In this document: in pieces, positions 47,088 through 52,531 of the stretch | How the letters are laid out: every line of letters begins with the position of its first letter | Position numbering within the stretch: the first letter of the stretch is position 1 | From: Photobacterium pectinilyticum | GTDB lineage: Bacteria > Pseudomonadota > Gammaproteobacteria > Enterobacterales > Vibrionaceae | Assembly: GCF_024357955.1 (NCBI RefSeq) | Contig: NZ_JANEYT010000019.1 | Span: 1 to 64,000, forward strand | Direction of reading: 5' to 3' | DNA length: 64,000 nucleotides | Position numbers and translations under genes: made by a program | Notes under the pieces: generated by a model | The model's input: the letters and a program-made list of their open reading frames with translations, nothing else | Told to the model about the DNA's origin: nothing | Databases searched by the model: none

Positions 47088-50000
47088 TTAGTGTTTACTT
47101 GGCTCTAGAGTCAGGCTGTAAGCGTACTGCTTATCAGTTAGCTTGAACTCCTCATGAACACTTGGGCTCCATGAATCATCACCGCCAACCCCCATATGCT
47201 GGTGGTCGATACGCAGGAATAGCTGTTGCTCAGGTTTCAACTCATTGGTGTGTTTTGCTTCAGTCAATTGCTGTTGATTGTATCGACTAACACTGAACTG
47301 GAAGTCACCCGAGATGTTTAGACTACCAATGGTAAGTGATTGACAGCCACAACGCAGCCCACTGTCCGTTGGGAAGATATAAGGCGTGTGCATGGCCGTG
47401 ACTGCTTCAGTGTAATGACCAAAACGTGCTCCAGATAGTCTGTCGGGATAGTTTTCGAATGGACCCAGTCCGCGCCACTCAATGTTCTGCTGTTCATCCT
47501 GTAGTGGTAAGGCTAGCTCGATGCCAATACGTGGCATCGGCGGAAGCTCATCAGCAAGGTTGATTGTTACATCAACCTTGGCCTTGCCTTGGCTATCTAG
47601 GGTGTAAGTCCAAGCCGTAATGGCTTGGACATTGCCATTGAAGGTATACACAAACGTTGACGTTACCGTGACCTGGTGGTTAAGCGTATTGACCTGGCAA
47701 TTGACACATTCACGGTTCCACTTACCAATGCCCGCAGCATCCCAGCGGCATACCCAGGCATTTGGGTCAACAAAATCGACTTCACTGACACCGATGTCGT
47801 TATCCAAAGGTGCACGGAAGAAGTTATCGACCGGTGAGCTGACGAATTGAGGTTTAGCATCAACGGTCCATTGCTCTAATAAGCCACTCGCTTTATTCCA
47901 GCACCAATGGTGTGTTCCATCTTCGGTACTGACTAAAATGGCTTCGCTGTTTTCCGTTGCGACAGGCGCATGACCTTGTGTCAATGAAGGGTAAGCCAAC
48001 GAATTGCGGTTGATAACTGCAAACTGTTCGCTGGCAATGGTGTGGCCAGCTTCAGCCCATGCGGTTGCTTCAATCAGTTCGATGTCGGTATTTAAATGAT
48101 AAACTGCCCCCGTGCGAGGTTTAAAATCGACATCCAAGCACAGCGTTCTCTGGCTGTCAGCCGGTACATTAAGCTGTTGTTCACCTGAAGCAATCACCCG
48201 CCCATCTTCAAGCAGTGACCATTTTAGCTGTTCGTTATCGGTGGTACGGAACAAGTTTTCGTTGGTTACAGTCAGGGTGTACGCTATGCAGTTAGCCAAT
48301 TGTTCTTCACTATTTAGCGCGATGGTGATCATGCGCTGGCAGTGCTTGGCTTCTTCCAGTGTTGGATGCGGGGTTCGATCCGGGAACACCAAACCATTGA
48401 TGCAGAACTGACGGTCATTGATAGTATCGCCAAAGTCACCCCCATAGGCCCAGAAGTGTTCGCCTTGCTCGTCATACTTGCCGATGCCTTGATCAACCCA
48501 ATCCCAAATAAAGCCACCTTGTAGGCGAGGGTAATCACGGAATGCATCCCAGTATTCGTTGAAGCTACCGAGACTGTTACCCATAGCGTGAGCGTATTCA
48601 CACAGGATCAATGGACGGTCTTCATTCGGTAACGAAACCCATTTCTTGATTGACCATTTTGGCACGGCTTCATCGGCAATGGTGGTATTAACCCGCGCAT
48701 ACATCGGGGCAATAATATCTGTGGCTGTGGTATCAGAGCCACCACCTTCGTATTGCACTGGGCGGGAAGGGTCAAAGTTCTTCGACCACGCATACATGGC
48801 ATTATGGTTGCTACCGTGGCCAGACTCGTTACCCAGTGACCAGATAATAATCGATGGATGGTTCTTATCGCGCATGACCATCTGGGTATAGCGACTCATG
48901 TAAGCGTGTGCCCACATTGGATCGGCAGACAGGCGATTCATTGGCTCCATGCCGTGGGTTTCAATGTTGGCTTCGTCACACACATACAAGCCATACTGGT
49001 CACATAGTTCATACCAACGTGGGTGATTCGGGTAGTGGGCGGTACGAACAGCATTGAAGTTATATTGCTTCATTAGGCAGATATCTTTGATCATGTCTGC
49101 CTCAGTCATCACATGACCAAGCTCAGGATGGTGCTCGTGGCGGTTCACACCGCGGATCAGTAGAGGTTTGCCGTTGAGGCAAAGCTGGCCACCGATGGTT
49201 TCGACTTTACGGAAACCGACCTGATAGGCTTCACTTTCAATATGGTTTCCATTGGCATCTAGCAGTGATACCACACAGCGGTACAAATTCGGTGTTTCTG
49301 CGCTCCATTTATTCGGTTCACGTACTGCCAAGGTTTGAAAAACGACGTCGTTGTAGCTACCACGCTCATCAATGCGGCGATTATTCGGTCGGTCAATGAC
49401 AGGCTCTGTGATTACTTGTTCGCCGTCAAACAGCTGAACCTGAACATAGTGCTCTGCAGTGGCGTTGATATGAGTAACAACGGCTATGCTGCCATCACGG
49501 TAGCAGGCATCTAAATTTGGTGTGATAAAGACATCTTGAATGCTCTGCGAAGGTTTGGTCAGTAGGGTCACATCACGGAAAATACCGCTTAGCCACCACA
49601 TGTCCTGGTCTTCGAGGTAGCTGCCGTCACTCCAGCGGATCACCATTACCGCAAGGCTGTTTTCACCTGCAACAAGGTACTGGGATAGATCGAACTCGGC
49701 AGGTAGCCGGCTGTCTTGGCTGTAACCGACCCAGTGACCGTTACACCATAGGTGGAAGGCTGAATTTACGCCATCAAAGATAATGCGGTGGGTTTCTGAT
49801 AGTTGATTTTCTTCAACCAAGAAGTTTGTGCGGTAGCAACCTGTTGGATTATCTTTTGGGACGAACGGCGGGTTAACCTCAAACGGGTATTTGACGTTGG
49901 CGTAAATCGGTTTGTCATAACCGTGGAGCTGCCAGTTTGAAGGGACTGGAATATTATCCCATTCTTGGTCATTGAAGTTAGGAGCTATGAACTCACCGTT

Positions 50001-50195
50001 AACGTGTTCTGGGGCGTCAAAAAGTTTGAATTTCCATTCGCCATTCAATGACTGGCGCTGGGCATTTTTCCCATCACGGGCACTGTCGACATCACGGTAG
50101 CTAGCTAATGGACTGTGCGCAGACAAACAATGGATGTTCACAGACTGTGGATTTTCCCAGTCTCGGCGCTGAATAATGTTAGTAAATGCCGTCAT
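47088..50195 (-). CDS. lacZ: Beta-galactosidase (GH2, LacZ type)
   Basis: Hydrolyses lactose and other beta-galactosides to galactose and glucose (or aglycone). The 1035-residue chain has the five-domain LacZ architecture. The acid/base Glu457 is in SLGNESGHG and the nucleophile Glu533 in [11 protein letters not shown]. The length matches E. coli LacZ. It lies downstream of a LamB-like porin and MalM-like lipoprotein gene. No LacY-type permease is adjacent, so uptake is presumably by the MelB-type carrier at 58 kb. The product galactose feeds galETKM. Confidence 0.97.
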
Positions 50196-50301
50196 CGTTA
50201 TCCTACTTAAAGTGATCTTACTTAATCTTGTTAATTTTAGTCGCGGTGCAGTACGGCTATGGTAGCGGCCACACTGCGATTAATTTGGTGTGCTCTATCT
50301 G

Positions 50302-51195: not shown

Positions 51196-51280
51196 TCTTC
51201 GTTCCTCTCAGTGCAGGTCAGGCTGACCTGCACTGTTTTGTCAGATTTCCGTTACCGGACTATTTCCGATACCGAATTCC

Positions 51281-52531
51281 TTACCACCAAGTTTCGACGT
51301 TAAAACCAAAGGTTACTTCGTCAACATTTTGCTTGCCACTCTCACTGCGCATTGCTGCACCGTAGGTCTCGCCACCACGATCCCATTCATCGTTTTTCTC
51401 TGAGTAGGTCGCGAAGACGCGGAGAGTAGGGCGAGCCCAGACCCCTTTTCCAGCTTGGAACATTTGGGCTACAGTGACTTTGAACATGTCATTAGTACCA
51501 GCGCCATTTTGTGCTTCAACAGTCTCGTAACCCACTTCTAGCGCTGTCGCCATGTATTCAGTCCAGCTGTACTGAGGACGAGCGCCGACACTGAACCACT
51601 TTTCACCTTCGTTATTGTCTAGGTTTTTATCTTGATAGGCGATGGAATACATAACCTGGAAGTCTTCGTTGACGTTCAAGTCACCGTGATTGAATAGACG
51701 CCAGCTGTAACCATCGTGAACTTCACCTGTACTGTATTTGCGGTTAGAGCCTCCCTCTGCACTCATCAAACCACCGGCTAGGGCATCGGTACCATACTGG
51801 AAGGCAAGAGTGTTTGAACCGTAATTCCAAGCTTGGCGATAAAGGGCAGAGAGCATGGCACCAGAGGTTGTGATGTCGGCTTCGTCATGGCTTGAGTTTT
51901 GCTCGAAGACATAGTTAAGGCCAAAGGTCAGGTCAGCTGTATCGCTCAGTGCAATATCGCTGATTCGAGCATCAATATTATGCAGGCTGCGACCATCTTC
52001 ACCATTGGAATTCGGTGCCATCCATGCAATATGACCGTTACCAAAGCCTAGGTCCCAGTCCTCGACACCAATACCGGTACTGGATGTATCCCAATACTTA
52101 ATATCAATCATGTGCACTTCGTGACGGCGGTAAAAGCGTTCACCTGCCCATACTTTGGCATTAGGCTGTGAAGCGATTAATCCGTGACCCGCAGACCACA
52201 TTTGGATGATGCTGACATCACCCCAGCTTTCACCACTACCAAGATAAAGGGTGGTGTCAAAATAAGCGTCACCGTGTTGCCAGACATCAGCTTTCAGGCC
52301 GGCTTCCCACCAATTCAGCTCGTTACCCAAACGGTAATTACCATAACCTTCACTGGCACGGATCACATCGTTGCGCTCACCTTTGCCATTATTATGATCA
52401 TCATTGTCTGTGTAGATGTTTCCCCATTTTGCATAACCAAAGTAAGTGATATTTTCCACTGCGGCTTGGCTGGCTAGTGGGGCAAGTACCAAAGCGATAC
52501 CGACTGCTTTTGCTAGCATCTTTTGTTTCAT
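51281..52531 (-). CDS. LamB-type carbohydrate-specific outer-membrane porin
   Basis: A 416-residue porin with a signal peptide (LVLAPLASQA). The maltoporin-like stretch WAGERFYRRHEVHMIDIKYWDTSSTGIGVE is seen near residues 128-157 and the chain ends in an aromatic NVETWW. It would let oligosaccharides diffuse into the periplasm. In this location, in front of lacZ and with GalR-type operators upstream, the natural substrate is probably lactose or other galactosides and not maltodextrin. Confidence 0.85.
   Translation of the reverse strand: MKQKMLAKAVGIALVLAPLASQAAVENITYFGYAKWGNIYTDNDDHNNGKGERNDVIRASEGYGNYRLGNELNWWEAGLKADVWQHGDAYFDTTLYLGSGESWGDVSIIQMWSAGHGLIASQPNAKVWAGERFYRRHEVHMIDIKYWDTSSTGIGVEDWDLGFGNGHIAWMAPNSNGEDGRSLHNIDARISDIALSDTADLTFGLNYVFEQNSSHDEADITTSGAMLSALYRQAWNYGSNTLAFQYGTDALAGGLMSAEGGSNRKYSTGEVHDGYSWRLFNHGDLNVNEDFQVMYSIAYQDKNLDNNEGEKWFSVGARPQYSWTEYMATALEVGYETVEAQNGAGTNDMFKVTVAQMFQAGKGVWARPTLRVFATYSEKNDEWDRGGETYGAAMRSESGKQNVDEVTFGFNVETWW

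Follow-up and report, generated by a model that had tools for sequence, protein, structure and literature searches.

The first 64,000 nucleotides of contig C110 of Photobacterium pectinilyticum (genome of 5.7 Mb in 200 contigs), hereafter called the window, carry genes for a LamB-family porin (lamB2) and a MalM-family lipoprotein (malM2) directly upstream of lacZ, behind a GalR-type operator that also precedes alpha-galactosidase, melibiose-symporter and galactose genes. We propose that these genes probably form a galactoside-utilization regulon with its own outer-membrane entry, namely a galactoside-dedicated glycoporin and its lipoprotein partner. The first-pass annotation of this DNA had read the order lamB-malM-lacZ on the minus strand, and Pfam searches supported all three genes. 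galR1 follows lacZ on the same strand, and the lamB2-malM2 and malM2-lacZ gaps measure 85 and 106 bp. The genes concerned are the following (window coordinates; GH, glycoside hydrolase family).

51281..52531, minus strand: lamB2, LamB-family porin of 416 residues with a signal peptide-like start; PF02264 277.6 bits (cut-off 25.1), profile positions 3 to 378 of 378
50302..51195, minus strand: malM2, MalM-family lipoprotein of 297 residues with a lipobox-like Cys18 and a Cys35-Cys36 pair; PF07148 49.6 bits (cut-off 26)
47088..50195, minus strand: lacZ, GH2 beta-galactosidase; PRK09525 1612 bits (cut-off 1221), with the Pfam domains of GH2 beta-galactosidase also matched
45821..46843, minus strand: galR1, GalR/LacI-family repressor; PRK10727 (GalR) 462.5 bits, under the cut-off of 557; start taken as the ATG at 46843, the mechanically called open reading frame (ORF) opening with a TTG at 46879
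37423..38421, minus strand: galR2, second GalR-like repressor; PRK10727 487.9 bits, under the same cut-off of 557
28206..32705, plus strand: galETKM cluster, four ORFs whose names were read from translations, not from a family search
55597..57720, plus strand: GH36 alpha-galactosidase gene (melA-like); PF02065 386.3 bits
58033..59403, plus strand: melB, melibiose-type symporter; PRK10429 667 bits (cut-off 456)

GalR-type operators had likewise been claimed ahead of lamB, and a perfect site and a one-mismatch site are indeed present there. The whole window contains four exact copies of the palindrome TGNAANCGNTTNCA, which lie upstream of galE, lamB2, the GH36 gene and melB only, and nine copies when at most one mismatch is allowed, compared with an average of 1.7 over 30 mononucleotide shuffles. 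The sites of interest, to which no strand is assigned, are listed below.

52598..52611: perfect GalR-type operator upstream of lamB2, TGNAANCGNTTNCA
52737..52750: second operator-like site upstream of lamB2, TGNAANCGNTTNCA with one mismatch
55508..55521: perfect operator upstream of the GH36 gene, TGNAANCGNTTNCA
57871..57884: perfect operator upstream of melB, TGNAANCGNTTNCA
28050..28063: perfect operator upstream of galE, TGNAANCGNTTNCA

The four perfect sites thus represent a LacI/GalR-family palindrome common to the member operons, as in a GalR-type regulon, and because the only such palindromes of the window precede lamB2, GH36, melB and galETKM, the lamB-malM pair belongs to this galactoside regulon. 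The set would be repressed by the GalR proteins encoded in the window. Two GalR-like repressors, galR1 and galR2, are found there, either of which may govern a given operator, and galR2 has a one-mismatch operator-like site at 38549-38562. No such palindrome was found in the gaps 5' of malM2, lacZ and galR1; the lack of an operator in the malM2 and lacZ gaps fits a single lamB-malM-lacZ transcript, without proving it.

The cluster recurs in other genomes. With MalM2 as query, 296 Vibrionaceae genomes yielded 29 places in 28 genomes, our own included, at identities of at least 31%; below these matches identity falls to about 25%, the level of ordinary MalM proteins. LamB2 was found in 30 of the 296 genomes (E up to 1e-100), among them all 28 with MalM2. 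Two, G217 and G132, carry LamB2 without MalM2, and G132 has LacZ relatives elsewhere and no MelB at the threshold used. In the 28 fetched MalM2-orthologue regions, LamB2 adjoins MalM2 every time, accompanied by LacZ in 27, by GH36 and MelB in 23 and by a GalR1 relative in 22. In the four Photobacterium regions from which GH36 and MelB are missing, the same contig has a MelB at 95 to 99% identity 12 to 18 kb off. A single scan of named genomes gave 22 loci, i.e., 3 in Photobacterium, 12 in Vibrio, 2 in Aliagarivorans and 5 in Enterobacterales, of which LacZ occurs in 20, GH36 and MelB in 19 and MalM in 18. The closest is that of Photobacterium lutimaris, with a LamB2 92% identical. The counts of 22 and 28 are not independent, because several genomes occur in both.

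Outside the Vibrionaceae, the five Enterobacterales loci belong to Klebsiella sp. BIGb0407, Cedecea, Leclercia, an Enterobacteriaceae metagenome-assembled genome and Mixta (Erwiniaceae). Four of them have a LacI-type gene, lacZ, GH36, melB, lamB2 and malM2 in a row, and that of Mixta reads GH36-melB-lamB2-malM2. The Aliagarivorans loci (Alteromonadales) comprise melB-lacZ, a divergent galR, GH36 and lamB2, with no malM. The cluster is also present on records deposited as plasmids from Vibrio pelagius, V. fortis and Vibrio sp. THAF190c. This recurrence rules out a chance neighbourhood of lamB2, malM2 and lacZ. Judged from these sequences, the pair is an older, separate lineage common to Vibrionales and Enterobacterales, with the porin also in Aliagarivorans. 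Separately, a conjugative Vibrio crassostreae plasmid carries a lone maltoporin-like gene amid metal-resistance genes (L092:5016-6245).

The operator accompanies the cluster. All 28 MalM2-orthologue regions of other genomes have a perfect site 76 to 95 bp upstream of the called start of lamB2, and 17 of the 22 named loci have one at 57 to 95 bp, compared with 4.8% of random 350-bp stretches drawn from the window and the 28 regions with the real operators counted in. As for the other five LamB genes of the genome, the stretch examined held no site at up to one mismatch for four of them and a one-mismatch site for the ScrY-type one.

We then asked what kind of porin LamB2 is. It shares 34% identity with Escherichia coli LamB and scores 280 against the maltoporin model NF006860, under the cut-off of 394. 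E. coli LamB (725) and a LamB from a Vibrio mal locus (440) pass this cut-off, but it decides little on its own because the mal-type porin of contig C181 of the same genome fails as well (81). In a tree of 40 LamB sequences, the 13 LamB2 proteins form one clade (support 100/100), separate from the enteric, Vibrio and Photobacterium maltose-locus porins and from the ScrY-type, BglH-type and other sequences. The placement against maltoporins and ScrY that had been proposed as a check thus puts LamB2 in no maltoporin clade. The nearest sequence in this tree is the long-branched porin of contig C111 of the same genome; after removal of five long-branch sequences, the enteric maltoporins are nearest (96/97). 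A tree constrained to unite ten typical maltose porins to the exclusion of LamB2 is worse by 26.5 log units (approximately unbiased test, p 0.045). The tree has no outside root, and a long-branch warning applies to the joins of LamB2, which may descend from a maltoporin-like ancestor.

Pore positions, in E. coli LamB numbering, were compared between the 13 LamB2 sequences and 16 porins from maltose loci. All 13 keep Tyr6, Arg33, Glu43, Trp74, Arg109, His113, Asp116, Asp121, Trp358 and Trp420, and all have Lys8, Lys16, Trp41, Glu111 and Lys118, while Phe227 is replaced by Ser in 12 and by His in one. At position 118, which we take to be the pore-constriction site where a maltoporin is expected to have an aromatic residue, Lys is present in 13 of 13 LamB2 sequences and in 20 of 20 of set A4, whereas all 16 porins from maltose loci have Tyr or Phe; Klebsiella and Aeromonas porins paired with MalM have Phe. 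The aromatic greasy slide of maltoporin consists of positions 6, 41, 74, 227, 358 and 420, and LamB2 is still aromatic at five of these six, with 227 the exception. The residues fit an altered specificity, without proving one. The tree and the residues, not the NCBIfam cut-off alone, speak against counting LamB2 among the true maltoporins. A structure model of LamB2 was too poor for use (predicted local distance difference test [pLDDT] 64.4).

LamB2 could instead be a broad-range or maltodextrin porin that has merely come under galactose control, passing maltodextrins or any oligosaccharide and serving the galactoside locus as an unspecific channel. The five aromatic greasy-slide positions, the retention of Arg33, Arg109, Asp116 and Asp121 and the proximity of the enteric maltoporins once long branches are dropped agree with this, but the clade of its own tied to galactoside genes in several genera, the changes Tyr118 to Lys, Phe227 to Ser or His and Arg8 to Lys, and the separate lamB-malM pair in the mal-type locus of the genome speak against it, and we consider it unlikely.

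The genome encodes six LamB-family porins and two MalM-family proteins in total. The second lamB-malM pair lies on contig C181, beside amylase-like genes, and the remaining porins are in sucrose-type, phosphotransferase system (PTS)/GH1, GH3/oligopeptide ATP-binding cassette and other glycoside-hydrolase loci, as judged from neighbours read from translations rather than family-scanned. LamB2 is not in a maltose locus: its neighbours are lacZ, GH36, MelB and GalR, and malE is on other contigs. Two malE-like genes, whose products share 66% and 61% identity with MalE of E. coli, lie 5 to 6 kb apart on contig C125 (L126, L127); MalT has one match on contig C124 (45%) and two short weak ones. Of the earlier claim that no malEFGK genes are near, the malE part stood, with matches on C125 only; malF, malG and malK were not searched for one by one. 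The mal-type locus on C181 has its own porin, which speaks against the possibility, raised in the first-pass annotation, that a normal mal locus uses LamB2.

The claim of a galactoside porin system derived from the maltose one held in part. The tie to galactoside genes, the clade of its own, the GalR-type operators and the separate mal-type pair stood. A reuse of the genome's own mal-type pair was rejected, the C181 pair being intact, in another clade and distant (its MalM is 23% identical to MalM2). The derivation itself may hold, and what speaks for it is the 96/97 join and the p of 0.045, in a tree with no outside root.

MalM2 likewise stands apart from the maltose-operon proteins. PF07148 is matched in 18 of 18 members of a set of MalM2 sequences (A5; E up to 0.001), and in a tree of 31 MalM sequences the 12 MalM2 proteins form one clade (100/99). 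MalM2 scores 66.5 against NF007855, the equivalog model for MalM of the maltose operon, under its cut-off of 295, which a Vibrio mal MalM (180) and the C181 MalM (114) fail as well. Cys18 and Cys35-Cys36 are conserved without exception in two sets of sequences (22 of 22, and 18 of 18). The vicinal pair (window 51088-51093), about 17 residues past the lipobox Cys, is also present in the Photobacterium-type mal MalM, and is absent from enteric and most Vibrio mal MalM sequences. A structure model (pLDDT 74.8 overall, usable for about residues 34 to 202) shows a beta-sandwich followed by helices. Structurally, it comes closest to beta-sandwich domains of the PPC/collagen-binding kind (VIA Z 10.1, root-mean-square deviation 2.4 over 102 residues), with Foldseek template-modeling scores of about 0.2 to 0.26 of the query; this likeness is a hint to the fold, not to a function. 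No convincing relative of MalM emerged when solved structures were searched by sequence. MalM has been part of the mal operon for decades, and we know of no function for it; none turned up in a literature search of titles and abstract openings. The available text on Vibrio parahaemolyticus MalM describes a concanavalin A-like domain and calls MalM and its maltoporin fast-evolving (PMC10734457).

Across the fetched loci, MalM and LamB go together. All 103 MalM-family ORFs have a LamB-family porin within 1.5 kb, 102 of them being downstream of the porin on the same strand and one divergent from it, in contexts that include maltose, galactoside and beta-glucoside-type loci. The pairing also holds in sets found by MalM itself (28 of 28 in one set, and 49 of 49 in another drawn from 47 regions hand-picked from the MalM2 match list of the Vibrionaceae search). 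As every MalM ORF adjoins a LamB-family porin in several sugar contexts, MalM looks like a porin partner. Class-wide searches of 369 genomes gave MalM matches in five genomes and LamB matches in five, with only our own in both lists, and are uninformative on adjacency; they yielded five own-genome LamB matches (7 candidates, 5 scored) versus six in the genome search. Among these contexts, a beta-glucoside-type lamB-malM locus with GH1, GH9 and PTS genes occurs on a Klebsiella oxytoca plasmid and has a relative in Aeromonas caviae (L088:4001-6315, L119:4595-6828), and two Vibrionaceae genomes, G143 and G273, have two tandem lamB-malM pairs (L131:6875-11802, L132:6000-10954).

MalM2 might still be a dispensable passenger kept by linkage, with the porin alone being of importance. 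It is the fastest-changing protein of the cluster, the median identity between the window and Vibrio being 37% for MalM2 compared with 84% for LamB2, 74% for LacZ, 71% for GH36 and 87% for MelB; it is absent from 4 of the 22 named loci, and four Enterobacterales copies do not have the C-terminal helices. Against this stand the 103 of 103 adjacencies and the ratios of nonsynonymous to synonymous substitution rates (dN/dS) in four pairs, which are higher for MalM2 (0.07 to 0.36) than for LamB2 (0.04 to 0.05) yet below 1, so that MalM2 is under constraint. We regard the passenger explanation as improbable.

The spacer between the two genes is structured. In the window, the fold predictions on the minus strand are as follows.

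51209..51235, minus strand: 12-bp stem-loop in the lamB2-malM2 spacer, with no T-run behind it
47028..47061, minus strand: stem-loop and T-rich stretch 3' of lacZ, possible terminator

A stem of at least 8 bp is present in 66 of 76 distinct lamB-malM gaps versus 7 of 26 malM2-lacZ gaps, and passes the 5% mark set by mononucleotide shuffles in 49 of 76 and 6 of 26, respectively. Five of the ten stem-less lamB-malM gaps are only 33 to 42 bp, shortened by a called malM start upstream of the lipoprotein start. The stem-loop varies in sequence and occurs in maltose and galactoside loci alike. It could yield more porin than MalM.

Several observations weigh against a dedicated galactoside system. 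Gene context and pore residues are what suggest a specificity of LamB2 for galactosides, and Lys118 is not by itself a galactoside sign because E. coli BglH and the C111 porin share it, as does a Klebsiella pneumoniae BglH relative. The operator motif was not found before lamB2, GH36 or melB in the five Enterobacterales loci. In one Vibrionaceae genome (G156), lamB2-malM2 lies apart from lacZ and melB, MelB (74%) and LacZ (55%) being together on another contig, and lamB2 is alone in its stretch in V. ulleungensis (L109). The porin can also do without MalM2, given its absence from those 4 of 22 named loci.

The natural substrates, which lacZ and GH36 would serve, might be marine galactosides such as floridoside and galactosylglycerols, or larger galacto-oligosaccharides, rather than lactose and melibiose. 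The sea contains little lactose, the cluster is frequent among marine genera, and its alpha- and beta-galactosidase genes are under one operator set; on the other side, Enterobacterales carry the cluster too, and small galactosides should pass general porins. We find this conceivable, although on balance doubtful.

Several known systems resemble parts of the locus. The E. coli malK-lamB-malM operon, set among maltose genes and MalT, contains the same two families, likewise with lamB before malM and a structured spacer separating the two genes. It differs in that here lacZ, GH36, MelB and GalR-type operators are the companions and the porin is 34% identical, with Lys instead of Tyr118. E. coli MalM also lacks a lipobox Cys within residues 1 to 60, whereas MalM2 is a lipoprotein by sequence. 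The closest printed analogue that we found, as far as the available text goes, is the Shewanella baltica ompGal-lacZ-galTK-galPII-galE operon, a lac-type locus predicted by comparative genomics to be under GalR, with GalR sites and its own outer-membrane transporter (PMC2996990). That transporter, in contrast, is TonB-dependent and not a LamB, LacZ is predicted to be secreted, and MalM goes unmentioned in the text available (PMC2996990). ScrY, for which the C200 locus of the genome served as a stand-in, is also a LamB-family porin in a non-maltose sugar operon; the C200 porin has Asp109, Asp118, Phe121, a long N-terminal extension and no adjoining MalM that we could find, unlike LamB2 with Lys118 and Asp121. 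BglH of E. coli shares the LamB family and Lys118, but has 538 residues, falls into another clade and belongs to a PTS beta-glucoside operon. RafY is described as a porin for alpha-galactosides in the text available (PMC13304739). A literature search of titles and abstract openings, in which subscription papers were thinly covered, found no description of LamB paired with MalM in a locus for lactose or melibiose. RafY belongs to another porin family, and its likeness to LamB2 would be one of function. LamB glycoporins as such are already known; what appears to be new is a LamB-family glycoporin with a MalM partner in a proposed role for galactosides.

In the galactoside regulon that we propose, LamB2 would form a trimeric glycoporin that passes alpha- and beta-galactosides across the outer membrane, and MelB would take them through the inner membrane. 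In the cytoplasm, LacZ and the GH36 enzyme would cleave them and GalETKM would then handle the galactose. In the presence of galactose or a galactoside, the GalR-type repressor would let go of the set. We picture MalM2 as a lipoprotein of the outer membrane that acts on the periplasmic side of the porin, for example as a binding or docking partner that holds sugar near the channel mouth; alternatively, it may aid porin assembly. Elsewhere in the window, a 210-residue protein encoded at 44780-45412, between galR1 and a LysR-type regulator gene, starts with what resembles a signal peptide and matches nothing in Pfam or NCBIfam.

A broader idea, which we put forward tentatively and would rate as slightly less than an even bet, is that MalM is not a maltose protein but a lipoprotein that partners much of the LamB family in the periplasm. 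Each lineage (maltose, galactoside, beta-glucoside) would then have its own co-diverged MalM, docking at the periplasmic mouth of the porin to hold or hand over sugar, and LamB2 with its Lys constriction would represent a new sugar class of glycoporins. If so, the galactoside pair would be a natural comparison separating porin function from maltose metabolism. The extra sugar contexts of LamB-MalM make the notion of MalM as a porin partner testable in a maltose-free background. The textbook lac system depends on general porins; the lac/mel regulon described here would have an outer-membrane channel dedicated to it, the porin being present in three orders and the porin with MalM in two.

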